Shown here piece by piece: positions 881-22,604 of a stretch of DNA of 25,271 nucleotides (the stretch's first letter is position 1; each line of letters starts with the position of its first letter). The stretch covers positions 1-25,271 of IMG/VR virus record IMGVR_UViG_3300028802_000054; one strand, written 5' to 3'. A program made the position numbers and the translations under genes. Below the pieces are notes generated by a model that worked only from the letters and a program-made list of their open reading frames with translations, was not told the DNA's origin and did no database searches. Source of the stretch: a virus.

Positions 881-2142
881 GGCAATGTGCCGCCGCAGAG
901 GGGCGAGTATTTGCCCAGCACGTTAGCCCAGCTTGGCCATAGATGGGCGGCCGAGAAGATGTTGGTCGTCGCCACCTCGCACTCGATACCCCAGGCGGCG
1001 TTGCCGGCTAGGGTCGCCGCGGTGTCGAGCGATACCAGGGCGGTGGCGTCGCCGATCTTTAGCCCCGAGCCTTGGTTACTGATCAGATTCGACGAGCCGG
1101 CGACCTTCACCGTGCCGTTGCTCCAGGCTTTAACATAAAGCCCGGCCGCGCCAACGGTAGGACCGGCGCCGCCGGCCCAGCCGGCCCAAACCAAGTCTTT
1201 GATGCCATTACCCGATGACACAGTGTCATTGATGTAGGCGTTGTGTGTTAGGCAAGTGTCAAACACCGCCTGGTCCGACACGAATATCTGCAGGTTGGTC
1301 GTTGCGGTCAGCGAGTTGTCGACCAACAATCCGTATTTGCCGACGTTGATGCACTCGACGCTGGAGTAACCGAGATAAAGGCCGCCAAAGCCGCCGGCCA
1401 GATGGATGCCGGCATTGCCCTGGTTGACGTTGATAAAGTTGTTGATGCGAAGCTCGACACCCTGATTGATCAACACCGCGTCGTGCGTCACGTAGGGCAT
1501 CGAGTGATCGAGGATATCCCAGGCGGTATTCTCAAAGCGGATGCCGTCATAGAGTGTCGGCGTCGGGTGCGGCGGGCCGCCGTCGTTGAGCTTGCCGCCC
1601 TGCCCGGTGGTGAACTGGACAAACCGGCTGTAATCGACATCGTAGAAGTGCGCCGCGGCGCCGCCGGTCATCACCGTGGTGCTGTAGATGCCCCAGCCCT
1701 GCCACAGCACTTCGGTCGCGCTCGACAGTTTGACGATGTCGACGGTGGTCGATGCACCGCTGTAGACGATGCGCGAGGCGTTCATCCCGGCGCCGAGGAG
1801 GCTCCAGTTTTTGCCGCCGCTCCAGATCAGCGGCGCCGTGATTTTGTACGACCCCGGCGGCAGATAGCCCGAGCGGCCCTCGGCGGCGGCAACCCAGGTG
1901 CCCCACGCCTGTAAGGGACCGGTATCGTCGGCAACCCCATCACCAACCGCGCCGAATTGCTGCGGCGTGACGGCGGCGCCGATCATCTCCAGCGGCATCG
2001 GCACCGCCGGCTTGCTGGCGCTGCGATCCGGGTTGCCGAGTACGGTGCCGGGTTTGATGTTGCCGAAATTCTGCGCCGAGGCCGGCAGTGCAAAGAATAA
2101 CAGCAGCGGGAGCAGACGGCGCATCACGTGATTGGCGGTCAT
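877..2142 (-). CDS. Tailspike-like beta-helix protein with signal peptide (pectate-lyase superfamily)
   Basis: 421 residues from ATG 2142, chosen because it overlaps the upstream stop (TGA 2141-2139) as ATGA; a longer open frame to 2220 has no support. Residues 8-23 form a basic-hydrophobic signal peptide (MRRLLPLLLFFALP then ASA|Q). Residues 26-55 hold a PGTVLGNP linker seen in tail fibres. From about residue 60 (TPQQFGAVGDGVADDT) begins a pectate-lyase-type right-handed parallel beta-helix, followed by many turn repeats rich in G, N and V. The expected role is host surface polysaccharide binding or cleavage as a tailspike or depolymerase. The oddity is the export signal, since virion proteins are normally assembled in the cytoplasm. 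No catalytic residues can be assigned by eye. Confidence 0.75.
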   Translation of the reverse strand: MTANHVMRRLLPLLLFFALPASAQNFGNIKPGTVLGNPDRSASKPAVPMPLEMIGAAVTPQQFGAVGDGVADDTGPLQAWGTWVAAAEGRSGYLPPGSYKITAPLIWSGGKNWSLLGAGMNASRIVYSGASTTVDIVKLSSATEVLWQGWGIYSTTVMTGGAAAHFYDVDYSRFVQFTTGQGGKLNDGGPPHPTPTLYDGIRFENTAWDILDHSMPYVTHDAVLINQGVELRINNFINVNQGNAGIHLAGGFGGLYLGYSSVECINVGKYGLLVDNSLTATTNLQIFVSDQAVFDTCLTHNAYINDTVSSGNGIKDLVWAGWAGGAGPTVGAAGLYVKAWSNGTVKVAGSSNLISNQGSGLKIGDATALVSLDTAATLAGNAAWGIECEVATTNIFSAAHLWPSWANVLGKYSPLCGGTLP

Positions 2143-3854
2143 GGCTGGGGAGAAATCGCGATCGTCGGCGTGGCCGAATGGGTCACGACCACGCTCTGAT
2201 GCGGCGACAGAGAGACGCAACTGTTTGTCCCCGTCGCCATTGTTGTGCCCCCGACCGCAACATTAGAAACCGTGCCGCCGGTCAGGCAGACATACTCCCG
2301 CGTATTGCCGGCCGAATACGTGTACGGCGAGGCGCTTGCCGGACCACTCGCGGAGGCCAGGCTGAATCCGGGATTGCCCTCGATCCTGGCAACGACGCCC
2401 GCGCCGTAGATGATTGTATTGATATTTCCCTGGCTCAGATCGACGCCTTGGATAAGCACCCCGGTATTCGGGCCGGTCAAAATTATGCCGTTGTTGTAGG
2501 TCGTGACGAAACCGTCGCAAAAGCCGCCGATCTTGCCGCCTCGTATCCGCAGGTTGGTGACGTTGGCTGCGGCGACGATCCCATGGTGACCGGCGGCGAC
2601 CGAGTTGCCGCAGACAAACGACGTATCGAAATCGATATCGGTACCGGCATTCAGATCAACGCCATCCAAATTGTTTTGGTAAACCCGCGCCCCGATAAAG
2701 TGGAAGCCGTGAAAAACCGCCGCGCCGGCCGTGTTGGAAATCGTCAGACCCGGTCCCGCGGTGCTCGACGACATCCAGCAGCCGATGCACATGAGGCTTT
2801 TGACTTGTGCGTCCGACCGGCCGGTATCGATCTCGAAGGCCACACTTGTATCCGTGTCGCCGAGCACCGTATTGGAGAAGAACGTCCACCACACCGTCTG
2901 CTGCACAACCCCGGTGCCGCCGGGCTTTATCACCGTGCCCTTGTTAAAAAATATGACGTTGGTATTCGTTACCTGCATACCGCCGGAATCTTCGATCAAC
3001 ACTCCGGTACCGCCGGGACCGGCTTGGTTTCCGGCAAGTGTGGAGCTGGTTAGTCGAAAGTCGGATGTCTGACCCGAGTTAGTCTGGTGCCCAACCCGGA
3101 CCCCATAGCAGGCGGCCCCAACCGTCCCATTAATAAGGATACGGTTGGCACTGTGGTCTACGCCGTTGATGTCGAGCCCGACGCAGGTCCCGCCGATCGT
3201 AATGTGTTCAAGTGTGATGCTGCTGGTACCCGGGGCTATCAATATGCCGGTGCCGCTGGCTGCGCCCGCGTTACTGATCCAAAAGCTACGAAACAGCGAG
3301 TTGTTACAGCCGGGGGCGAGCGTCAGCACCGTCTGGTTGGGCGCTCTGGTAATAAACCCGCCGCCGCCGGACGCGCCGATCATTTGCATCCGGTGGTTAC
3401 AGGTCAGCCCGTCTACGGCGTAAGTACCCGGGCCGAGCAGCACGGTCGCGTTGGTGGCGGCGTCGATCGCGGCTTGCACCGCATTCGTGTCATTTCCCGA
3501 ACCGTTGCCCTTTGCGCCAAACTGCATCGGGCTGATGCCCGTCGGTTCCCACTGCGCCAGCCAACATTTATTGTCCAGCGACTTGACCTGGCTACCGCCG
3601 TCGCCGTTGCCGGCGTTCAAGGAGCAGGCCGCGTTGGAAGCCTTAAACATGAGCGGCGAACCGGTGTCGCCGGGCGCGGCGAACCCCAGCCGCATCACAT
3701 ACGGCGCCGCGGTGGAGGGAATATTCCGCAGCGTGGTGTTGTTGTCCGTCGTCGCCACGGTGTCGGGGCTGTAGGCGGCCTGTACCGGGCCGAGCATCAG
3801 GAATAGAGCCGGGACGAGCCAGCGCATTGCCCGGTTCATAGCTTGCCGGCGCAT
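2139..3854 (-). CDS. Tailspike-like beta-helix protein with signal peptide
   Basis: 571 residues from ATG 3854, which overlaps the adaptor gene stop as ATGA. An N-terminal segment MNRAMRWLVPALFLMLGP then VQA|A looks like a Sec signal peptide (residues 6-26). A head-binding-like region covers about 27-105, and the motif SPMQFGAKGNGSGNDT (about 108-123) starts a pectate-lyase_3-type beta-helix with LLGPGTYAVDG, consistent with phage depolymerase tailspikes. The C-terminal ~100 residues (YVCLTGGTVSNVAVGG and on) look like a trimerisation or capping module. It is followed by a second, shorter tailspike-like gene, so the phage may carry two receptor-binding proteins. Secretion as a free depolymerase is an alternative to virion attachment. 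Confidence 0.75.
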   Translation of the reverse strand: MRRQAMNRAMRWLVPALFLMLGPVQAAYSPDTVATTDNNTTLRNIPSTAAPYVMRLGFAAPGDTGSPLMFKASNAACSLNAGNGDGGSQVKSLDNKCWLAQWEPTGISPMQFGAKGNGSGNDTNAVQAAIDAATNATVLLGPGTYAVDGLTCNHRMQMIGASGGGGFITRAPNQTVLTLAPGCNNSLFRSFWISNAGAASGTGILIAPGTSSITLEHITIGGTCVGLDINGVDHSANRILINGTVGAACYGVRVGHQTNSGQTSDFRLTSSTLAGNQAGPGGTGVLIEDSGGMQVTNTNVIFFNKGTVIKPGGTGVVQQTVWWTFFSNTVLGDTDTSVAFEIDTGRSDAQVKSLMCIGCWMSSSTAGPGLTISNTAGAAVFHGFHFIGARVYQNNLDGVDLNAGTDIDFDTSFVCGNSVAAGHHGIVAAANVTNLRIRGGKIGGFCDGFVTTYNNGIILTGPNTGVLIQGVDLSQGNINTIIYGAGVVARIEGNPGFSLASASGPASASPYTYSAGNTREYVCLTGGTVSNVAVGGTTMATGTNSCVSLSPHQSVVVTHSATPTIAISPQP

Positions 3855-4792
3855 CAGCGCACGCTCCAATTGCTGCCGCTCCAGTACAGTTCGGCCGCGC
3901 CGTAATCGGAAAAGATCGCGTAACTGGCGGCGCCGTCGATCGGCCCGGTGATGATGATGGCATAGGTCGAGGCGTTGCCGAGCACGTCCTTGAAGCGCAG
4001 GGTTTGCCCCACGGTGGGGCTCGGCGGCATCGTGATGGTGATCGGCCCGCCGGTGCTGTTGCGAATATTGATGTCGCCGCTAAACCCGGTCGGCAGCGGC
4101 CCGGAGACGATAACGTCGAGATACGGCGGCACCACCGGCGCCGTCACCGTCCAGGCGCCGCCGGGGCCACCGGCCCCCGACATGCCGGCGGGGGCGGTAA
4201 TGCCGTCGACCTTGATGGTCAGACCACCAGGCCAACGCGCCTTACGGTCGGCCTGCTCGATGCTGGCAAGGGCCGCTGCCGCCGCCTGCGTCCACAAGGC
4301 GACGCGCTCGTCATGGCCGATGAATGCCTCGGCGGCGACGAGTGTGGAATAAAGGTAGACATCCGGGTGATCGATCAGGAGCCAGTTAGTCGGCGCTGTG
4401 TCGCTCAAGGGCGGCAATCCCGACTGATACAGCAGCTCCAGCGTCACGGAGCCGCTCGGCGCCGGGCCGAGGCGCAGCTCATTGCCGTGCAAGGTGTAGT
4501 GATATGGCGGGCCGCTGCCGCCGGGCAGTTGATCCGGCGGCACATAGGTGACAAGCACGCCGTTACTGGTGACGAGGCGGATCTGGCGGCAGCCGGCCGG
4601 CAAGGCCACCGCTGCCGCCGTCACCACCGTCGAGGCGCGCTGCTCTGCCTCGCCGACCCTGAGCCGGCGGCGCAGTTCGCTCTCTGCCAGCACGATCATT
4701 TCCGGCACGGTTGGCGCCACTAGCAGATCACCCGGCCGCGCTAGCCAGTTGAGCACGGAGGATTGCAGGTCGGCGTAACTCGCCAGCGACAT
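3854..4792 (-). CDS. Head-tail adaptor protein (SU10-type) with C-terminal appended module
   Basis: 312 residues from ATG 4792 (ATGA overlap with the upstream stop, with GGGGA about 9 nt before); a GTG at 4807 is possible but less likely. Residues 1-200 match the all-helical phage adaptor family: SLASYADLQSSVLNWLAR, EMIVLAESELRRRLRV, a beta strand pair around LPAGCRQIRLV and LLYQSGLPPLSDTAPTNWLL, then a helix with AAEAFIGHDERVALW. It should dock under the portal and connect head to tail. A proline/glycine-rich linker (about 205-235) leads to a 74-residue module (about 239-312) that is homologous to most of the neighbouring upstream gene. The module is not part of adaptors that I know, so this is a fusion or a recent duplication. 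Confidence 0.75.
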   Translation of the reverse strand: MSLASYADLQSSVLNWLARPGDLLVAPTVPEMIVLAESELRRRLRVGEAEQRASTVVTAAAVALPAGCRQIRLVTSNGVLVTYVPPDQLPGGSGPPYHYTLHGNELRLGPAPSGSVTLELLYQSGLPPLSDTAPTNWLLIDHPDVYLYSTLVAAEAFIGHDERVALWTQAAAAALASIEQADRKARWPGGLTIKVDGITAPAGMSGAGGPGGAWTVTAPVVPPYLDVIVSGPLPTGFSGDINIRNSTGGPITITMPPSPTVGQTLRFKDVLGNASTYAIIITGPIDGAASYAIFSDYGAAELYWSGSNWSVR

Positions 4793-5097
4793 CAGCGCGT
4801 TCCCCACTGCGTGCCCATCCAGTACAGCTCGATCGAGGCGTAATCGCTGGCCAGCGTGTAGCTGGGCCAGCTATCGATCGTGCCGAGGATGGTGATGTTC
4901 GACGTGCCGGCGTTGCCGCCGACATCCTTAAATTTGAGGGCCTGCCCCCGGATCGGCGCGGCCGGCAAGGCGATCGCGATTGGCCCGCCGGTGAGATTGT
5001 GGATGTTGATATCGCCGGCCGTGCCCGCCGCCAGGACCGCCGAGGCGGTCACGTCGGTGGCGCCGGTCTCGCCGTCGGCAATGATTGCCCAGGACAT
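4792..5097 (-). CDS. Small structural-region protein, stand-alone copy of the adaptor C-terminal module
   Basis: 101 residues. ATG 5097 is preferred because it overlaps the previous stop as TAATG; an upstream GTG (5133) would add 12 residues. The first ~27 residues are a short lead (MSWAIIADGETGATD), and residues 28-101 align end to end with the C-terminal module of the adaptor encoded next: GDINI-N-TGGPI, KDVGGNA, SDY and ELYW are shared, 42 of 74 positions identical by my count. The pattern of strands ending in LYW-G--W suggests a small beta fold of the kind found at the tip of tail fibres. Function unknown; it is likely a virion or neck decoration subunit. Confidence 0.65.
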   Translation of the reverse strand: MSWAIIADGETGATDVTASAVLAAGTAGDINIHNLTGGPIAIALPAAPIRGQALKFKDVGGNAGTSNITILGTIDSWPSYTLASDYASIELYWMGTQWGTR

Positions 5098-5435
5098 TAG
5101 AGTCTGAACGATCCGGTACGGAGATAGCGCCACTCGCTGGAATTGAGCAGCCGCAAGACCGCCTGGCCGTGCTCGGCCTTCATCGCGTCAATGCCGTAGA
5201 GTTGCCGCCACAAATTTACCACCTCGATCGGAATGCGGGCTGCCAGGCGCATGTCGCGCTCCGGGCCGACCCAGCCGGTGAAATTGTCGGCCGTCTGCAG
5301 CCGCTTGTTGGTCTCGATGATCGGCCCGACATCCGCGCGCCGGTGGATGGTGGATATGCCGGTCAGCTCGTCGTGCTCGAATGTCTCGACCGCCCCGGTC
5401 AGCGGATCGTGATCGAAGTAGTATTGGTGCGCCAT
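5097..5435 (-). CDS. Conserved phage protein of the neck region, function unknown
   Basis: 112 residues from ATG 5435 (a TTG at 5447 lies inside the terminator arm and is unlikely). The sequence opens with HQYYFDHDPLTGAVETFEHD, then IHRRADVGPIIETNKRLQ, and ends with IPIEVVNLWRQLYGIDA and LLNSSEWRYLRTGSFRL. I recognise this as a recurring small protein beside adaptor genes in podovirus-like phages, with no assigned function. Its stop overlaps the start of the next gene (TAATG). It begins only 10 bp after a strong intrinsic terminator, so its transcription must depend on read-through, antitermination or a promoter that I cannot see. Shine-Dalgarno match is weak. Confidence 0.65.
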   Translation of the reverse strand: MAHQYYFDHDPLTGAVETFEHDELTGISTIHRRADVGPIIETNKRLQTADNFTGWVGPERDMRLAARIPIEVVNLWRQLYGIDAMKAEHGQAVLRLLNSSEWRYLRTGSFRL

Positions 5436-6643: not shown

Positions 6644-7612
6644 CTATGGTGCGGTCAGGTCTGCGATGAGGGCAGAGCTGGCCTCGTTCTTCGCCGCCAG
6701 GGTGTACTCACCGATCAGCATCCGCTTCTCGGCGTCGCCGGTCTTGGCCAGCGGCATCTGCGTAATCGGCCGCAGCCAGTCAACGGACCAGTACGACCAA
6801 TTCAACAGGAACACGTCACGCACCCGCTGGAAGCGGTTGGGGATGATCCTAACCGTATGAAAATCCCCAACATAAACGTCCACAGTGGCGACAGTTTCCT
6901 GCTTCATCACGTCCACCATTTTCGTGGCGCCGCCGGTGAAAGCAGAGATCGCCTGCTTGTTACTGGCGCCGGCCATGATCACATCGAGGTCTTCGCTGCT
7001 GTTGGTGTAGACCGACTTCATCGCCGCCTTCAGCATGACCTCGGTGATGGCAACCGGTGTGGTGCCGTCCGTGCGTCCGTTGCTGCCGTCGCCGACCGGG
7101 TTGGACCCGCCCGCGACCACATTAGCGACGTTGGTCTTGAGCCAAGCCAGGATGCCGGCGCATAACGGCGCTGTAGCCGCCGCGCCAACTACTTTTGCTT
7201 GGTTTGACAGTAATATACCTTCGATATCGATCTTGAGCTCTTTAGCGCGTTTCGTCATCTGATATGCGAGTTCAGTACGCCGGCCAGCTTTATTGACGGC
7301 GTCGAGTGTGCCGGAAATAATAACCTCCTTCCGGCTTATTTGAGTCCTATTCCCGAGGCGCGCCGTCACACTCGCTGCCGAAAATGTGGCTATATCGTCT
7401 CCCTGGAATTGGGCGTTGTTTAGATTTATGGCAGCTAGACTGTCAGTTTGCCATTCATGAAGAACAGCATCAGCTGTACCACGCCCAACATTACTTGTGA
7501 ACGGAGTATCCGAAGGCGAGAGCAAATAAATCATATCGCTCAAGTCTTCCCTAAGCCCCTGCATTCCTGGACTTCCAGAAAATGTAGTTGCCGTTCCTGT
7601 TATTATCGCCAT
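6644..7612 (-). CDS. Major capsid protein (SU10 major head protein family, DUF5309)
   Basis: 322 residues, ATG 7612, GGAG about 10 nt upstream, stop TAG. The N-terminus (GLREDLSDMIYLLSPSDTPFTSNVGRG) is characteristic of this HK97-fold capsid family, followed by LHEWQTDSL, the GNRTQISRKEVIISGTLDAV segment and the C-terminal DVFLLNWSYWSVDWLRPITQMPLAKTGDAEKRMLIGEYTL domain. Several hundred copies would form the head shell. It is directly downstream of the scaffold gene, as usual. Base composition in the first third is visibly less GC-rich than in the neighbouring genes, which could mean stronger expression-related codon choice or recombination. Confidence 0.9.
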   Translation of the reverse strand: MAIITGTATTFSGSPGMQGLREDLSDMIYLLSPSDTPFTSNVGRGTADAVLHEWQTDSLAAINLNNAQFQGDDIATFSAASVTARLGNRTQISRKEVIISGTLDAVNKAGRRTELAYQMTKRAKELKIDIEGILLSNQAKVVGAAATAPLCAGILAWLKTNVANVVAGGSNPVGDGSNGRTDGTTPVAITEVMLKAAMKSVYTNSSEDLDVIMAGASNKQAISAFTGGATKMVDVMKQETVATVDVYVGDFHTVRIIPNRFQRVRDVFLLNWSYWSVDWLRPITQMPLAKTGDAEKRMLIGEYTLAAKNEASSALIADLTAP

Positions 7613-7682: not shown

Positions 7683-8750
7683 TCAGAGTATTTCCATCAG
7701 GTAGGAGATCGCGTCCCGTTCAGATCCAGACTTACGTAGCTGGCCCATCTTCGCCGCCCGCACCTGCGCCGCTCGCGTGTCCGACCGCTGCCTGCCGGCA
7801 CCGGGCGGTTGCACGTTGGGAGCGGCGCCGTTTGTGCGCTTGGCTTCGGCCTGCTGGCGGGCTTCTCTCTGCTGGCTGGCCCGCATCGCCTCGTTGACGA
7901 CGAGCAGGACCCGGTGATCAATCACCTGGCCGATCTCGGTGTCATTGAAGCCGCGCTGCTGCAGCCACGCCCGCATGTCGCCGGCGAGTTTCGGCCCCTT
8001 GGTTTCGTCACCGAAATCGGGGAGCTTCTCGACCAGCCGGCCCATCTCGGCCTGCCGCAGCGCCGCTAATTGCTGCGCCTGGGCCTGCTGAGACTGCTCA
8101 CTGACACGCTGCAGCTCCTGCTGAATGCCGCCGATCCGGCCGCGCAGCGCGTCGCGCTCCGCTGTCAGTCGGACGTATTCGGCAGGCTGCTCGGAGGCCA
8201 GCCGCTGCCAATCGATCTGGGCAAACTTCTGCGCTTCCGGAGCAGCGACAAAGAGGAGCTGCTCAAGGTTCTTGGCGTAGGATTGACGCTCGTTCTGGAT
8301 CTCGCCAAACGTCGCTTCGAGCGCCTGGCGGTGTTGCGCGATCTCCTGGGTCTTCTGCGTAAAGGCGCGGTCTCTCTCGCTTTCCCGGCGGGCAATGACT
8401 GCCTGGGCTTCGGGAGGGAGCGAATTGAAAACCTCCTTGTCGGCATTAGACCAACTCCGAGGCGGCTCGACCGCGGCGGGCTCGGTGTCGGCTTCGCCGT
8501 CCGGCTCGTCGGGTAGATCGGCTTCCTCGGTATCGTCGGGGGCCGGGTCTTCCGGTCCGACAGCCGGGTCATCCCCGGGTTCCGGCGCGGCGGGCGCCTC
8601 TTGCGGCTCCCGCGGCGGTGTCTGTTGCGCGCGCTGCCGGCGCGGCGGCTCAAGGAGGCCCTCGATCCCGGCCATCACCTCGGCTTCGCTCATGCTGGTC
8701 GGAGGCGCAGAGGCGCCGTCGCTGCCAGCCTGCTGGCGCGTTTCACTCAT
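7683..8750 (-). CDS. Capsid scaffolding protein
   Basis: 355 residues from ATG 8750 with AAGGT upstream. The first ~125 residues are acidic, proline- and alanine-rich and probably disordered (PEPGDDPAVGPEDPAPDDTEE). The middle (about 125-250) is a long charged coiled coil rich in Q, E and R, containing a YAKNLEQLLFVAAPEAQ break. Then comes GDETKGPKLAGDMRAWLQQRGFNDTEIGQVID and a basic C-terminus (RAAKMGQLRKSGSERDAISYLMEIL) of the kind that binds coat protein. Position immediately before the capsid gene and this composition support a scaffold; no protease domain is visible. A 70-bp gap to the capsid gene contains a small GC-rich inverted repeat (7663-7679) but no gene. Confidence 0.8.
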   Translation of the reverse strand: MSETRQQAGSDGASAPPTSMSEAEVMAGIEGLLEPPRRQRAQQTPPREPQEAPAAPEPGDDPAVGPEDPAPDDTEEADLPDEPDGEADTEPAAVEPPRSWSNADKEVFNSLPPEAQAVIARRESERDRAFTQKTQEIAQHRQALEATFGEIQNERQSYAKNLEQLLFVAAPEAQKFAQIDWQRLASEQPAEYVRLTAERDALRGRIGGIQQELQRVSEQSQQAQAQQLAALRQAEMGRLVEKLPDFGDETKGPKLAGDMRAWLQQRGFNDTEIGQVIDHRVLLVVNEAMRASQQREARQQAEAKRTNGAAPNVQPPGAGRQRSDTRAAQVRAAKMGQLRKSGSERDAISYLMEIL

Positions 8751-9063: not shown

Positions 9064-9216
9064 TTAGCGCAACCCCGGCATGAAGATGTAGACGCCGAGC
9101 AGCACCACGCAGATCCAGGCGATCCATGGTTGAAACGTCACATACGGAGCGGCCGGCGGGGTCAGCGCCAGAAACCACAGAAACATCGCCACGACATAGA
9201 GCACCAAAATGATCAT
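9064..9216 (-). CDS. Small two-helix membrane protein (50 aa)
   Basis: ATG 9216 overlaps the upstream stop as ATGA; stop TAA at 9066-9064. The 50 residues contain two strongly hydrophobic segments, IILVLYVVAMFLWFLAL (2-18) and WIAWICVVLLGVYIF (31-45), separated by a short Pro-rich turn (TPPAAPYV), ending in PGLR. It is a membrane protein of holin-like size, but nothing else ties it to lysis. A second small membrane gene is located upstream of the large terminase. Confidence 0.6.
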   Translation of the reverse strand: MIILVLYVVAMFLWFLALTPPAAPYVTFQPWIAWICVVLLGVYIFMPGLR

Positions 9217-9548
9217 GCCGCGTCCCTTTCCTGCATCCGCGCCCGCGCCTCGATGCCGCGCGCCGTGCCGAGCATGATCCGCAATTCCGCCTTGAATTGC
9301 TCCACTGCCCAGTGCAGCCGGTACGCGGCTTCTCTCGCGTCGGCGTCGCCGACTTTGCTGTCGCGCCAGGTATCGACCAGCCGCTGCTGCACCCGATCGA
9401 GCGCCAGCACCAGGGTGGGGTCGTCGAGCAACCGTCGCGCCGCCTCACCGAGCTGCATCGGGTCGCTCGGCGCCGGCTCGATCGATCGCCACGGCGGCCG
9501 CGGCAATTTGCGCTCGGCCCACCAGTAGGCGAACGGGGTCCAGATCAA
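9213..9548 (-). CDS. Conserved small phage protein between portal and scaffold
   Basis: 111 residues from TTG 9548 (an in-frame TAA lies two codons upstream; the first internal ATG is residue 31). The C-terminal half, LALDRVQQRLVDTWRDSKVGDADAREAAYRLHWAVEQFKAELRIML, resembles a helical family that is frequent in phages just upstream of scaffold genes, but I know no function. Its stop overlaps the next start as ATGA. A tight hairpin (TCGGCC AAA GGCCGA, 9568-9582) lies in the 97-bp gap before it, which otherwise holds no gene. Confidence 0.55.
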   Translation of the reverse strand: MIWTPFAYWWAERKLPRPPWRSIEPAPSDPMQLGEAARRLLDDPTLVLALDRVQQRLVDTWRDSKVGDADAREAAYRLHWAVEQFKAELRIMLGTARGIEARARMQERDAA

Positions 9549-9645
9549 GGATTAACCAGGGCGTAGGTCGGCCAAAGGCCGATCGACATTCACGACCGAA
9601 GCCGGCCTCGGCGGGTTGCCTTGCGGCACCAGGCGCGCCGGAGGC

Positions 9646-10395
9646 TCAGGCTGCCGCGAGATCGCCTTGCCGGCGGCGGCGCTTGGACCACCAGCCGGCA
9701 AGGCCGCCGATCGACAGCATGCTGCCGAGCATCAGGAACGAGCCGGGCTCGGTGACGTCCTGCTGGGTCACGATCGGCACGATGTAGAAGCTCTCGCCGC
9801 CGTCGGTGGCGTGGTCCCACGAAGCCTGGAACAGCAGCCGGTCGTTGATGCCGATGCTCGAAAGATCGAAGCCGCTGATCAGGTAGTCGGCGCTGCCGTT
9901 GCCGTTGCGGATATTCGGCAGGACGATCGGCCCGGTCAGGTCGAAGATGATCCGCGAGCCAATCAGGTTGTCGAGGTCGATCAGGCGGAACTCGGTCAAT
10001 GTCTCCATGTTGCCGCCGGGTTTGCCGGTCGCGGTATTGATGTCGACGGCGACCCCGAAGCTGAAGTTGAGATCGCCGAGGGCCTGCAAGAAGGTGCGAA
10101 GCTGGCCGCCGGTATAGGGCGTGACGGTGACATCGTCGCCGTTGGCGAAGGCGCCGGTGATGTTCGAGCTGAACAGGTTGAAGCTTGAATCGTTACCCGT
10201 GCTGTCGAAATTGTTGAAGCCGAACCCGACCGGGTTCTGCACGTTGGTGGCGCAGATCACGCATGGCGCGCTGATCGATTGCGGCACCACCTGGGCATCG
10301 GGCAGAACGCCGATGGTCAGATTGTTGAGCGCGTCGGCATGGGCCGGCCCCGCGCACAAGGCCAGCAAGGCTGCCGCCGCAAGGTACTTCTTCAT
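9646..10395 (-). CDS. Secreted PEP-CTERM-type protein inside the virion operon
   Basis: 249 residues from ATG 10395, which overlaps the upstream stop as ATGA and has a strong GGAGGAG 6 nt before. Residues 1-21 are a Sec signal peptide (MKKYLAAAALLALCAGP, AHA|D). The middle is a beta-rich, Asn/Gly/Asp-rich extracellular-type domain with one CxxC (PCVICA). The tail has the tripartite exosortase signal: TEPGS (215-219), a hydrophobic segment FLMLGSMLSIGGLAGWW, and RRRRQ. Such proteins are anchored or released at the cell surface by exosortase and belong to bacterial exopolysaccharide systems. It has E-P-G-S where the consensus is P-E-P. Its place between portal-associated and scaffold-associated genes suggests a captured host gene (moron). 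Confidence 0.8.
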   Translation of the reverse strand: MKKYLAAAALLALCAGPAHADALNNLTIGVLPDAQVVPQSISAPCVICATNVQNPVGFGFNNFDSTGNDSSFNLFSSNITGAFANGDDVTVTPYTGGQLRTFLQALGDLNFSFGVAVDINTATGKPGGNMETLTEFRLIDLDNLIGSRIIFDLTGPIVLPNIRNGNGSADYLISGFDLSSIGINDRLLFQASWDHATDGGESFYIVPIVTQQDVTEPGSFLMLGSMLSIGGLAGWWSKRRRRQGDLAAA

Positions 10396-10595
10396 TGTTT
10401 CTCCTCCGAAAAAATGCGCTCGAACGCTACCGAAAGCGTAAAAGAACCGCTCCTGATCATCTCCACGATAACCCAGTTCGGCTCGGTGGGATGCGGGATT
10501 ATCGAGCGGATCGCGTGCCAGGCGATGGCAATCTGCTTCGGCGCCTTGCCGCCAGCGGTAATCGGGTAGGCGACCAAAAACCCCTCAAGCGCCAT
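10392..10595 (-). CDS. Small hypothetical phage protein
   Basis: 67 residues from ATG 10595, overlapping the upstream stop as TAATG; longer upstream frames to 10760 are shadows of the preceding gene. The sequence (MALEGFLVAYPITAGGKAP, then EPNWVIVEMIRSGSFTLSVAFERIF) looks like a small beta-rich domain. I do not recognise it. Its end is coupled by ATGA to the PEP-CTERM-type gene. Confidence 0.6.
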   Translation of the reverse strand: MALEGFLVAYPITAGGKAPKQIAIAWHAIRSIIPHPTEPNWVIVEMIRSGSFTLSVAFERIFSEEKQ

Positions 10596-10873
10596 TACGC
10601 GACCCGCTCGATCCGGTAGGTGTTGCCGGTCTGCCGGGTAATGCGCGAGCCGCCCCGGCGCAGGCCGAGAATATAGATGCTGCAGATGTTGCGGACATAG
10701 AGCGGGCCGCCATCCGCGCGGCCACCCCACAAATACTCGATTTGCATGTCCTTGCAGCATGTCTGCCCGAGCCGTAGCTCGAACAGCGCCCGCAGCATCG
10801 GCCGCTTGCGGCGGCCGCCGAGCGCCTTCAGCAGCGCCGCCGTGCCGATGCGGTGCAGTTCGCCGTCAGTCAT
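10595..10873 (-). CDS. Small hypothetical phage protein downstream of portal
   Basis: 92 residues from ATG 10873, with GGCGGG immediately upstream, 12 bp after the portal stop. The N-terminus is helical (GELHRIGTAALLKALGG) and the rest is basic with strands (YLWGGRADGGPLYVRNICSIYILGLRR). Two adjacent Cys (TCCKD) and a later Cys are present but no metal-binding pattern is clear. Family not recognised; location suggests a head or packaging accessory. Confidence 0.6.
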   Translation of the reverse strand: MTDGELHRIGTAALLKALGGRRKRPMLRALFELRLGQTCCKDMQIEYLWGGRADGGPLYVRNICSIYILGLRRGGSRITRQTGNTYRIERVA

Positions 10874-10885
10874 CCCGCCCGGCGA

Positions 10886-13216
10886 TCACAATCCCGGCGC
10901 CCCGCCATTGCCGATCGGCCCCGGCCCGCCCTGCCCGGCGGCATAAGCCCCGGCGGCGAATTTCAGCTCGACCTCGCGCTGTTTCACCGCGGCCTCGGCC
11001 TCGACCTTGGCCCGCGCGATCACTAGATCGTGCTGCGCCTGCTGCTGCTCGAGCTGCTGCTGGTGCTGCGCCTTCTGCTCCTCCAGCATCATCTGATGCT
11101 GCTGCTTCTGCTGCGCTAATTGCGCGTCGAGCTGCGCCTGCTGCTGTTGGCGTCCGGCATCGGCCTGCGCCTTCATCTGCGCCGCCTGCAACGCCGCCTG
11201 TGCTTTCATCTGCGTCGCCTGGACCTGCGCCTGCGCCACGATCAGCGCCGGATTTGGCGGCGGCTGCTCGGGCTGCTGCGGTGCCGCGCCAGGCGGCGGC
11301 GGCTGCGATGGGTCGGCGAAGAACGACTGCTTGAACCCGGCGTTTTCCTGCAATGCCTTCAGCGCATCGTACACATTCTGCGTGTAAACCAGCGGCCCCT
11401 TCGGCCCGCCCTGCTGCTGCACCACCGCATTCTGCAACTGCACCACCGTCATCAGATGCTGCAGCACCTGGTCCCTATTCCCCGTCCCGAGCCCGACGCT
11501 CACCGTAACCGGCATCGCCTCGCGCCACTCGCGCGGGTCGATCCGCAGCCAGCCGCCAGTCACCCGGATGATCCGCTCCTGCTGCTGGTGCCGCCGCACC
11601 AGGCCGAGAATGCCGCGCATCAATTGCTCAACGCCGTGCGCGAAGATCCGGGCAAACAGCTCGACCCGCTGCGCCTGCGCACCCTGCGCCATCGCCAGGC
11701 CGGCGGCTGTCGTATTCGACAAGGCGTCGGGCGAAATCGCGTTATTCTGCCGCGCGACCCCGGTGCGGATTTCCTGCGTCTCGTCGATGTACTGCACCAG
11801 CGGAAAGCTCTTGTCCGCGGTGTACGGGATCATCATCGGCTGAATACCGCCAAGGCGGCGCGACCGAACGACGCCACCCGGCCGCAAATCCAGCAGGTCG
11901 TCGTAAGTGTTTTCGTTGACGCTGTCGTCGGCGACCTCGACCCGCGGCCAATTGCTCAGGTACGCATTATCGACCATCTGCCGCACGATCGACGACTTGA
12001 TCTCCTGCAGATCGGCCGTCAGATCCGCCAGCGACAACCCCACCAGCCGGTGACTTTGCGGGATCGGCGTGATACTGACAAACGGCACCTCGTCGACGCA
12101 CTCGATGCACGGCTCGCCGTCGCGGGTGAGAATGATCAACCCGTCTCCCGCCGTCATCACCTGGTACAGCTCGGTGGTGCTGCCGTCCTTCGACAACTGG
12201 ACGTAACATTCCTCGACCCAGATATGCCGCGCCGGGGTCTTCGCATCCTCCTGGTACGGCGGCAGATCGTCAGCGCGAAACCGCTCGACCCGCTCGATAT
12301 TCATTTCCATGTCGTCGTGCAGCGGCACTAAATCGAGCGTGTCCTCGTCGTAGCCCTGCTCGACCAGGTCGCTGTAGGTCCACCGCCGCCGGTGCGCCAA
12401 AAACGGAATGTCGCCGCGCTTGGCCCGCCGCGAAAACAGGATCTCCTCCGGCGCGACGTTCTCGATGCGGATACGCGGAAACTCCCGGGTAAACCGCAGC
12501 GTGACATCGATCAGCTCGATTTCGGGCGCGGGCAGCGCCGGAGGCGGCGGCATGCCGGGAGCCATCGGCGCCTGCGACTGCTGCGCCGGAACCGGAAACG
12601 GCAGATCCAGGCCGAAACTGTCGCGCGGCTGCTTGTACCGCCGCTGCTTCACGATCTCGACTTGCGTGTCGCCCAGCAACGCATCCAATTGCGGCTGCAG
12701 CAAGCCGGTATAGCTCTGCGTCTCGACCTCGCGCTGCGTGTCGGCCCAGTACTTGACCCAGCCGAGCCGCTCCAGCAGCGCATCCTTGAACCAGTCGTGC
12801 AAAATCATGAAGCCGGGATTTTCGCGCTCGAATATGTGATTGACGTACTCCGTCGCCTGCTTTGCCGCCTGCTCCATCCCCGGCCGCGGCGGCTCCACGA
12901 TGCAGACCCGGTCGCTCGCGGTGAATATCCGCATCAAGGCCGGCAATACCCATTCCACAGCTTCGAGGACACTTCGCATCACGACATTGCTGCGATCGGT
13001 GCCGACCGGCCCCGGCAACTCGCCCTCGTAATATTGCAACGCCCGCAGCCGGTCCTGACTCAGACTGCCGCCGTCCTGACCCAGCGCCTCGTCCAGCTCG
13101 CGCTGCACGATGGCCTTCACCTCGTCCTCGTCCCAGCCGTCTCCCTTGGCGCCCGCGCCGCCCCCGATCCCCTGCGGGATCTTGCCGGGCCGCTCGGAAC
13201 CGTACGGGCTGCCCAT
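10886..13216 (-). CDS. Portal protein (P22/SU10 type)
   Basis: 776 residues from ATG 13216, supported by ATGA overlap with the upstream 60-residue gene; a TTG/GTG at 13252/13249 is less likely. The N-terminal wing and stem region includes LRALQYYEGELPGPVGTDRSNVV, EWVLPALMRIFTASDRV and NHIFERENPGFMILHDWFKDALL, all typical of podovirus portals. The C-terminal third includes NTTAAGLAMAQGAQAQRVELFARIFAHGVEQLM. After a Pro-rich break (QPPPPGAAPQQPEQPPPN) follows a ~110-residue Gln/Ala coiled coil (barrel-like extension). Twelve copies form the DNA entry ring at one head vertex. Confidence 0.9.
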   Translation of the reverse strand: MGSPYGSERPGKIPQGIGGGAGAKGDGWDEDEVKAIVQRELDEALGQDGGSLSQDRLRALQYYEGELPGPVGTDRSNVVMRSVLEAVEWVLPALMRIFTASDRVCIVEPPRPGMEQAAKQATEYVNHIFERENPGFMILHDWFKDALLERLGWVKYWADTQREVETQSYTGLLQPQLDALLGDTQVEIVKQRRYKQPRDSFGLDLPFPVPAQQSQAPMAPGMPPPPALPAPEIELIDVTLRFTREFPRIRIENVAPEEILFSRRAKRGDIPFLAHRRRWTYSDLVEQGYDEDTLDLVPLHDDMEMNIERVERFRADDLPPYQEDAKTPARHIWVEECYVQLSKDGSTTELYQVMTAGDGLIILTRDGEPCIECVDEVPFVSITPIPQSHRLVGLSLADLTADLQEIKSSIVRQMVDNAYLSNWPRVEVADDSVNENTYDDLLDLRPGGVVRSRRLGGIQPMMIPYTADKSFPLVQYIDETQEIRTGVARQNNAISPDALSNTTAAGLAMAQGAQAQRVELFARIFAHGVEQLMRGILGLVRRHQQQERIIRVTGGWLRIDPREWREAMPVTVSVGLGTGNRDQVLQHLMTVVQLQNAVVQQQGGPKGPLVYTQNVYDALKALQENAGFKQSFFADPSQPPPPGAAPQQPEQPPPNPALIVAQAQVQATQMKAQAALQAAQMKAQADAGRQQQQAQLDAQLAQQKQQHQMMLEEQKAQHQQQLEQQQAQHDLVIARAKVEAEAAVKQREVELKFAAGAYAAGQGGPGPIGNGGAPGL

Positions 13217-13398
13217 CAGCCGGTCCGACCCGCGAGCGAACCGACCCACCAATACGGCATGCCTTTAAGATCAAGTATGGTCGGATATTCCTGCACCCGC
13301 ATCGCCGCCAGGTAATTGCAATCAGGCCGGTGATCGGACCCGGCCGGCGCCGTGCAGCACATGCAGGCTGGCGGCCGCGGTAACCCCGGCGGGATCAT
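13216..13398 (-). CDS. Small Cys-rich protein upstream of portal
   Basis: 60 residues. ATG 13398 overlaps the upstream stop (ATGA) and its stop overlaps the portal start (ATGA), so the gene is bracketed by coupling signals. A CMCC...H..DC cluster (residues 12-27) could bind zinc; the remainder (NYLAAMRVQEYPTILDLKGMPYWW) is not recognised. Such small genes are common between terminase and portal in these phages; I know no role. Confidence 0.55.
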   Translation of the reverse strand: MIPPGLPRPPACMCCTAPAGSDHRPDCNYLAAMRVQEYPTILDLKGMPYWWVGSLAGRTG

Positions 13399-21568: not shown

Positions 21569-21975
21569 TTGTTTTCTTCCGCCGTCTCAATTGGATTTGG
21601 CGGTAGTGGGCCCGGCACCAGGCGAGCCAGACGCGGATGAGCTGCCAGAAAGTCCGCGCGCTGTTTCTCATAGTCCGCCCTGGCTTGGATGAGATCGATC
21701 GCGGCCTGCACGTAGGCCCTTATCTGATCGGCCTCGTGTGCCTGGACTGAGCGAGCCTCGCCGTAAAACAGCGACCTCACCCGGCCGTAGGGGAGGCGCA
21801 GGAGGTTTGCCGCGAACCGCAGAGCTTCCTTTCTGCTGGTTGTGGCTGCGAGTGCGGCCATATCGGCGACGTGCCGCCGCATTTCCTCGCGCACTGCTGC
21901 GGCGGTGAAATCCGAGCGCGGCGACGATATTTCCGACACCTCGGACGGTTTCGCGCGGAGCGTGGCGGCGGTCAT
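21565..21975 (-). CDS. Early phage protein with HTH-like segment
   Basis: 136 residues from ATG 21975 (ATGA overlap). Two long helices frame the segment KEALRFAANLLRLPYGRVRSLFYGEARSVQAHEADQIRAYV (about 49-90), which has the rhythm of a helix-turn-helix with Y-G-x-A-R after the recognition helix. The C-terminus is helical then Pro-rich. It is the second gene of the leftward early operon, the place of transcription regulators in lambdoid phages. Family not recognised with certainty. Confidence 0.6.
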   Translation of the reverse strand: MTAATLRAKPSEVSEISSPRSDFTAAAVREEMRRHVADMAALAATTSRKEALRFAANLLRLPYGRVRSLFYGEARSVQAHEADQIRAYVQAAIDLIQARADYEKQRADFLAAHPRLARLVPGPLPPNPIETAEENK

Positions 21976-22175
21976 GCGGCGGCACCCCGCGCTTCGAACA
22001 GTTGCTCGGGAGCCTCGATGCCTCGTTGGCGAGCGGCGGCGGCAAAACGCAGGTAGAGACGGGGAGGTAATCTGTCGAATTTCCGCCAGTTGCTGACGGC
22101 GGTTTTGCCCACGCCAGCTATCGCGGCGACTTCGGATGCGCCGCCGAGAGCGTCGATGAACTCGCTGGCTGTCAT
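21972..22175 (-). CDS. Cro-like (YdaS-type) helix-turn-helix regulator
   Basis: 67 residues from ATG 22175; in-frame ATG 22190 and TTG 22214 fall in the promoter. TASEFIDALGGASEVAAIAGVGKTAVSNWRKFDRLPPRLYLRFAAAAR (2-49) is a compact helix-turn-helix with the VSNWRK recognition helix of YdaS/Cro-type proteins. It is the first gene transcribed leftward from a promoter that contains two repressor operators, facing the divergent XRE repressor, so it probably acts as Cro. The predicted transcript start is only 4-6 nt before ATG, giving an almost leaderless message. Confidence 0.75.
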   Translation of the reverse strand: MTASEFIDALGGASEVAAIAGVGKTAVSNWRKFDRLPPRLYLRFAAAARQRGIEAPEQLFEARGAAA

Positions 22176-22185
22176 GGCGATTGCC

Positions 22186-22214
22186 AGCATATTCAACGCG
22201 GCTGAAGCTTTCAA
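22186..22214 (-). promoter_or_regulatory. Leftward early promoter
   Basis: On the minus strand TTGAAA (22214-22209), 17-bp spacer, TATGCT (22191-22186). It matches sigma-70 consensus at 5/6 and 4/6. Operator O1 fills the spacer and O2 covers the -35, so repressor binding would block it. Confidence 0.7.
22192..22206. promoter_or_regulatory. Repressor operator O1
   Basis: TTCAA CGCGG CTGAA, an imperfect 15-bp palindrome. It sits exactly between the -10 and -35 of the leftward promoter, 18 bp from O2. Confidence 0.7.
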
Positions 22215-22268: not shown

Positions 22269-22604
22269 GTGAACACGGGCCGTTCAAACGTCGATATTGC
22301 CTGGCGGCTTAAGGCCACATTGTTGGCGCTTAGGATTAGCCAAGCTGAGCTTGGAAGGCGGTGTGGCTTCCCGCCGCCGCGAGTGAACAATTGGTTTCAA
22401 GCTAAGGCGCGCCCCGATATAGAAGCGGCGAACGAAATCTGCGATCGCTTGCCAATAACACTCGATTGGATCTATCGGGGCGACGCCACGAAACTCTCAG
22501 GCGATCTCCAAGAGAAACTAGTTGCCGTGAGTAAAATAATCCCTGCGGCTGGGCGGGATCGTAAGGACGCAAGCAGACCCAAGCCGCAGGCGCGGCTGGC
22601 GTAA
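22269..22604 (+). CDS. XRE-family phage repressor without protease domain
   Basis: 111 residues from GTG 22269; upstream in-frame codons offer no other start. AGGAGG lies only 1 nt before the GTG, unusually close. Residues 9-72 are an XRE helix-turn-helix (IAWRLKATLLALRISQAELGRRCGFPPPRVNNWFQ, then the typical ANEICDRLPITLDWIYRGD end). The rest is a short basic tail. There is no LexA/S24 peptidase region, so RecA-dependent self-cleavage is not expected and induction must use another route. Four matching palindromes surround the gene. It could alternatively be the Cro partner, with the opposite small protein as repressor. Confidence 0.8.
   Translation: MNTGRSNVDIAWRLKATLLALRISQAELGRRCGFPPPRVNNWFQAKARPDIEAANEICDRLPITLDWIYRGDATKLSGDLQEKLVAVSKIIPAAGRDRKDASRPKPQARLA

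Follow-up and report, generated by a model that had tools for sequence, protein, structure and literature searches.

A 249-residue protein encoded in a 25,271-nucleotide IMG/VR virus record (hereafter the window, meaning the whole stretch of DNA analyzed) is read here, with a probability of roughly 0.7, as phage-borne cargo that would be exported by Sec, processed by a host exosortase and displayed on the surface of infected cells or lysogens. That the phage encodes a sorted protein is highly probable, sorting by a host exosortase through tails matched to the host is probable, and receptor masking or exclusion is put forward tentatively as the benefit. Whereas an earlier note on this DNA saw one odd gene, the comparisons made here reveal a family that is widespread among phages and whose tails can be exchanged. 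It is rather likely that this large, phage-specific family exploits the exosortases of its hosts: unrelated phages would have a conserved effector body in common, recombination would replace its tail with one suited to the exosortase class of the given host, and the host surface would be redecorated.

The gene and its surroundings

In the window, an SU10-like head module runs leftwards and comprises genes for an Sf6-type small terminase, the large terminase (TerL), the portal, a scaffold and the major capsid protein (MCP). The gene under study lies in this phage fragment between the genes for the portal and the scaffold (Table 1). The open reading frame proposed in the earlier note was borne out, on the minus strand, which that note had not given; the plus frame is interrupted. 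The description of the gene as embedded in the virion operon also held, as phage head genes adjoin it, including those for an SU10 portal (618 bits), an SU10 MCP (300 bits), the scaffold and TerL. The strong Shine-Dalgarno sequence is present. As to the proposed ATGA coupling with a phage gene, the overlap is real, whereas no homologue was found for the upstream ORF and the coupling is unproven. A scan of the gene region for promoters and terminators yielded nothing useful.

The protein has MKKYLAAAALLALCAGPAHA as its N-terminal and VTEPGSFLMLGSMLSIGGLAGWWSKRRRRQGDLAAA as its C-terminal sequence. Its layout, MKKYLAAAALLALCAGPAHA/DALNN...QDVTEPGSFLMLGSMLSIGGLAGWWSKRRRRQGDLAAA, comprises a Sec-like N-terminus, the motif TEPGS, an uncharged helix and RRRR. 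Residues A18 and A20 of the signal segment are nearly invariant across the family. A lipoprotein was rejected on account of the AxA-type site and of the lack, by inspection, of a conserved N-terminal Cys or lipobox. Searches of the window protein gave no useful match in PHROGs or Pfam, PF07589 included.

Table 1. Location of the putative surface protein gene, its parts and its neighbours in the window.
Feature	Positions	Strand	Basis
Gene for phage-borne surface protein resembling exosortase substrates, 249 aa	9646..10395 (10395→9646)	-	putative
Shine-Dalgarno GGAGGAG, 5 nt before ATG	10401..10407	-	sequence
ATGA overlap with stop of small upstream ORF	10392..10395	-	sequence
N-terminal signal peptide-like segment, residues 1-20, AHA/DA	10336..10395	-	
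Conserved body, residues 21-213, predicted beta-sandwich; motifs PCxIC, GFG[YF]NNF, DGGESFY	9757..10335	-	
Exchangeable C-terminal sorting-type tail, residues 214-249: VTEPGS, hydrophobic helix, KRRRR	9649..9756	-	
Non-coding 3' stretch, co-inherited with the tail; L050, L168 and L171 have nearly the same sequence	9549..9645	-	
Small upstream ORF of uncertain coding status, without homologue in the searches; 67 aa from ATG at 10595	10392..10595 (or 10760)	-	
Small 92-aa ORF following the portal gene, without homologue in the searches; probably belongs to cargo insert	10595..10873	-	
SU10-type portal protein, one border of cargo site	10886..13252	-	
Conserved small gene (phrog_8161), other cargo-site border	9213..9548	-	
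Head scaffolding protein	7683..8750	-	
SU10-type major capsid protein	6644..7612	-	
HTH_3 (CI/Cro-type) regulator, divergent to Cro-like ORF 21972-22214	22269..22604	+	

The HTH_3 regulator hints at a temperate phage; no integrase was found within the 25 kb of the window. The window portal is less than 40% identical to those of isolate phages, TerL is nearest to those of Microcystis and Sulfitobacter/Paracoccus phages (59-67%), and no tRNA marker of the host was found. Elsewhere in the window, the SU10 adaptor ORF (3854-4807) and the next small ORF (4792-5133) have a common C-terminal module, a doubled match also seen in several relatives, and a single phage ORF (20342-21133) contains DUF3102-like and DUF4326 domains. 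Pectate-lyase-like tailspike-type proteins are encoded at 877-2220 and 2139-3869, and in the related contigs L021, L033 and L041. All five start with Sec-like signal peptides, which is unusual for virion proteins, and they may be exported glycan-active enzymes.

Spread of the family among phages

Scans of viral contigs returned 10, 55, at least 137 (80 kept) and 14 loci, in overlapping sets, and 100 distinct full-length proteins were read out of 142 loci on metagenomic contigs that include some near-duplicates. Over 100 viral contigs contain the family, and it was found here in viral contigs only. No relative was detected in 84,980 cellular species genomes using patterns of the window branch only, which do not cover the L050 branch and may let distant relatives escape. 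Limited searches of INPHARED isolate phages and PLSDB plasmids likewise detected none, and short tail queries against plasmids and phages gave no match.

The carrier phages are diverse, and many of these soil phages are unrelated. The portal of L009 is nearest to those of Myxococcus and Stenotrophomonas phages (34-40%). In L009 the gene follows that for the major capsid protein; it is located between the TerL and portal genes in L006, between the tail fibre and TerL genes in L008, directly after the endolysin gene in L001 and L005, and beside an integrase gene in L001-L004. At the locus of the window, where the earlier note had proposed to look in related phages, the gene is present in L050, L168, L171 and L180. 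This, together with the more than 100 viral contigs and a body dN/dS of about 0.02-0.1 (close pairs), agrees with the view of that note that the gene is part of the phage, and marks it as a stable phage gene whose bodies are under purifying selection.

Locations between the portal and scaffold genes (window), after the MCP gene (L009) or between the TerL and portal genes (L006) would suit a virion component, such as a head or tail decoration. This reading was rejected as very improbable: the protein carries a Sec signal and a sorting tail, its placement varies among phages and is often beside an integrase, and close relatives with all the head genes lack the gene at the site. A host gene picked up by chance, with no function for the phage, would account for the resemblance of the tail to host sorting signals. 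It was rejected too, and is hardly credible in view of the more than 100 viral contigs, purifying selection, repeated tail exchange and the failure to find a cellular relative in the genomes searched. No exosortase is encoded on any of the 47 phage contigs examined, and therefore any sorting would need that of the host.

The sorting-type tail

The window tail scored 12.7 bits against TIGR02595 (cut-off 16), TEP replacing PEP, and being below the cut-off the window protein itself is not filed under this model. L168, in which the portal and the next gene are 88% and 94% identical to those of the window, has at the same locus a tail (VPEPGSLWMMGSMLSIGGFAGWWRNRRRGHGDFAAA) that is 72% identical to that of the window and reaches 20.0 bits with TIGR02595, above the cut-off. 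The window tail is a close variant of the L168 signal. Members scoring above the cut-offs of curated sorting models were L005, L009, L135, L136, L155, L157, L163, L165 and L168; TIGR02595 gave 25.0 bits for L005, 26.2 for L009, 25.9 for L135, 25.5 for L155, 20.1 for L157 and 20.6 for L163, PEPxxWA-CTERM gave 39.7 bits for L136 (cut-off 35), and PF07589 gave 31.3 bits for L155 (cut-off 20.7). Because relatives pass curated models, the window tail was accepted as sorting-type although sub-threshold. The exosortase-type tail described in the earlier note was therefore sustained in part. TEPGS, the helix and RRRR are present, and in the suggested searches with PEP-CTERM HMMs several family members, the syntenic tail homologue among them, passed, whereas the window protein failed the curated thresholds. 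A tail without a match to any sorting-signal model, which that note would have taken as a refutation, is the case at these thresholds for this one protein and not for the family.

A tail made of signature, helix and basic cluster is kept in all 100 distinct full-length members, 99 by rule and L163 through its match to TIGR02595. Only 12 of 5000 shuffled sequences conformed to the rule, compared with 99 of 100 relatives, so the pattern is not due to chance. The Sec signal attributed to the window protein was confirmed as a Sec-like N-terminus, and 98 of the 100 distinct members have one according to a simple hydrophobicity rule. The two that fail this rule are L050, in which a signal is present from an upstream ATG, and L137, which was read from a late start.

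Exchange of tails between conserved bodies

Four tail classes, assigned by patterns, were distinguished: PEP, PEPxxWA, VPLPA-like and PGPxxGAGxPG. On a tree of the bodies of 100 proteins, for which branch support was not tested, plain parsimony counted at least 19 changes of tail class, as against 41 or more in shuffles. Tail class follows lineage, yet it is often replaced, independently of the body. Thus, L099 and L104 share 95% of body amino acids and 44% of the tail, with flanks at background, and L138 and L141 share 79% of the body and 24% of the tail. The window body is 79% identical in amino acids to that of L001, from an unrelated phage, with tails that are 37-38% identical. With L050, identity is about 40% in the body and 75% in the tail (dS 1.18 and 0.32, respectively), and the alignment delimits the DNA common to both from the sorting tail to about 100 bases past the stop. 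With a body similar to that of an unrelated phage and tail DNA in common with L050, the window gene therefore joins a foreign body to the resident tail of its clade.

None of the curated sorting models recognized the PGPxxGAGxPG tail in those members that were scanned. Its shape and its exchange with recognized tails make it a candidate for an unmodelled exosortase signal.

On six contigs (L005, L117, L125, L155, L172 and L230) a second, non-family gene also encodes a signal plus a tail, and its tail class is the same as that of the family member in 6/6 cases, the class of the second L172 tail (VPGPIVGSGLPG) having been assigned by eye. A common class within a contig is what a requirement set by the host would be expected to produce. 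In L005 (7285-8004), L155 (3225-4004) and L230 (3102-3887) the second gene, of PEP-CTERM type (PF07589, 27.9-31.3 bits; cut-off 20.7), immediately precedes the family member, and the pair possibly constitutes a two-gene cargo unit. The second proteins of L117 (6859-7533), L125 (3718-4353) and L172 (6963-7655) are further phage proteins with a PGPxxGAGxPG-type tail; none of the three matched a Pfam model, and that of L117, the sole one scanned against NCBIfam, had no match there.

The tail might alternatively be a generic C-terminal membrane anchor that escapes exosortase processing and leaves the protein in the inner membrane, facing the periplasm, to act there in superinfection immunity at DNA entry or in lysis. 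Any signal combined with a C-terminal helix and a basic end would anchor a protein, the window tail lies below curated thresholds, and the gene directly follows that of the endolysin in two contigs (L001 and L005). However, a generic anchor would not have to retain a P-x-P/PEP-type signature throughout the family or pass curated sorting models, nor would it have to switch between recognizable sorting classes or match the class of a second gene in six of six contigs. We consider this alternative unlikely and favor sorting by the host exosortase.

A cargo site between conserved phage genes

The site between the portal gene and position 9548 is empty in L015, L034 and L055, close relatives from the clade of the window that keep all head genes, and it holds different cargo in other relatives, such as ADP-ribosyltransferase-like genes. 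The latter were observed in L050 (2512-3492; 26.8 bits with ART-PolyVal PF18760, cut-off 31.2) and also in L029, L030, L051 and L060. A tyrosine integrase was found in 9 of 48 records, and seven of these nine have the family gene at a distance of no more than 2 kb from it (P about 3e-5 under a uniform-placement model). This proximity and the empty sites place the gene, in related phages, in a cargo or lysogenic-conversion position, in agreement with the lysogen-linked role envisaged in the earlier note. The window gene is located among late head genes and adjoins no integrase.

Group I introns (Rfam RF00028, 58-92 bits) were observed in relatives, inside the SU10-like major capsid gene or at its edges, at varied sites and sometimes two per gene (L015 9066-9309; L021 1993-2225; L035 28-294 and 915-1210; L042 1020-1269 and 2078-2299; L050 8264-8477; L052 9702-9956; L060 5753-5974). 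Portal and TerL matches are also broken in some relatives; the MCP gene of the window is uninterrupted.

Predicted structure of the body

The body was predicted to fold as a beta-sandwich (AlphaFold2, pLDDT 78, pTM 0.73). Fold searches with two models gave no match at E <= 0.001, and the best sub-threshold matches were a mixture of jelly-roll, lectin and neuropilin-type folds. The beta domain proposed in the earlier note hence stands as a predicted sandwich, with no significant fold match.

A sorted protein could mainly serve the lysogen, changing its adhesion, flocculation or exopolysaccharide binding and leaving other phages unblocked. Activated-sludge bacteria require PEP-CTERM proteins to form flocs and bind EPS (PMC9850573), and the gene is near an integrase in temperate relatives. 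By contrast, in the window and its clade it lies among late head genes, and no polymer-binding fold was recognized in the fold searches of the body. On balance, a main role of this kind is doubtful.

Proposed mechanism and implications

Judging from its signal, the protein would be exported by Sec, and its C-terminal helix would then retain it in the inner membrane. The class of the tail suggests that a host exosortase would recognize the P-x-P/EPGS motif and process the protein, and that the beta-sandwich body would then be passed to the cell surface or the exopolysaccharide layer. Comparison of relatives shows that the tail is a module of its own, which is replaced on a body that is retained, presumably because exosortases differ between hosts. 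Once at the surface, the body would most likely mask or alter the phage receptor, leading to superinfection exclusion in the lysogen or the late-infected cell, and it would also prevent virions, once released, from adhering to debris. The most likely benefit would be receptor masking or superinfection exclusion, a change in lysogen adhesion or polymer binding being nearly as likely. Points against the main reading are the sub-threshold window tail, with its TEP, the failure of curated models to recognize the PGPxxGAGxPG class in the members scanned, the location of the window gene among late head genes and away from an integrase, and a body without a fold match, which hence offers nothing direct for receptor masking.

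In titles and abstracts of the open-access papers searched, a scope from which preprints and subscription journals mostly fall out, no phage-borne PEP-CTERM protein or phage use of exosortases was found; a PEP-CTERM-related term in PMC12642866 refers to host genes. Priority for phage exosortase use is not certain. If the proposed mechanism is correct, phages infecting soil bacteria that produce exopolysaccharide rely on a poorly understood host sorting system, and their tails are a natural record of which exosortase pairs with which signal. The function of exosortase substrates at the surface, and their say in phage attachment, would become testable, and tail class could predict the hosts of uncultured phages.

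Comparison with known systems

Phage T5 produces Llp, a receptor-masking surface protein that is a lipoprotein. The likeness lies in the proposed role only, that of a phage-made envelope protein that would block a receptor; the family has no conserved lipobox and is likened to Llp by role, not by sequence.

Phage lysogenic-conversion (moron) genes (see PMC7067206) are inserted between conserved phage genes, are absent from close relatives and often adjoin an integrase. Insertion between conserved genes and absence from close relatives were both observed here, as was integrase proximity in relatives. The family, as putative conversion cargo, differs in its exosortase-type tail, which takes the place of a lipobox or a plain membrane helix.

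L135 resembles the flocculation-associated protein PepA (NF033554) in its tail and, weakly, in its body (E = 1.1e-9), but with 38.5 bits against a cut-off of 80 it is not a member. Overexpression of PepA in Aquincola increased bound polymers and restored flocs (PMC9850573). VPLPA-CTERM (TIGR03370) matched 14 of 45 members below E = 1 (best 4.2e-5), although members scored individually reached 15-22 bits, under the cut-off of 25.35 bits, so that this is a resemblance only.

The closest parallel is offered by PEP-CTERM/exosortase (EpsH/Xrt) sorting, in which PEP-CTERM proteins are linked to exopolysaccharide loci (Haft et al. 2006, PMC1569441). The family differs from it in being encoded by phages without an exosortase, in combining one body with at least four tail classes, and in having, in the window, a copy below the cut-off. 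It resembles it in the combination of an N-terminal signal with a C-terminal motif, helix and basic cluster, in tails that are short, separable and of lineage-specific forms, and in that several relatives pass the cut-offs of TIGR02595, PF07589 or PEPxxWA-CTERM. With formal matches in these members, the family as a whole probably works like PEP-CTERM proteins.
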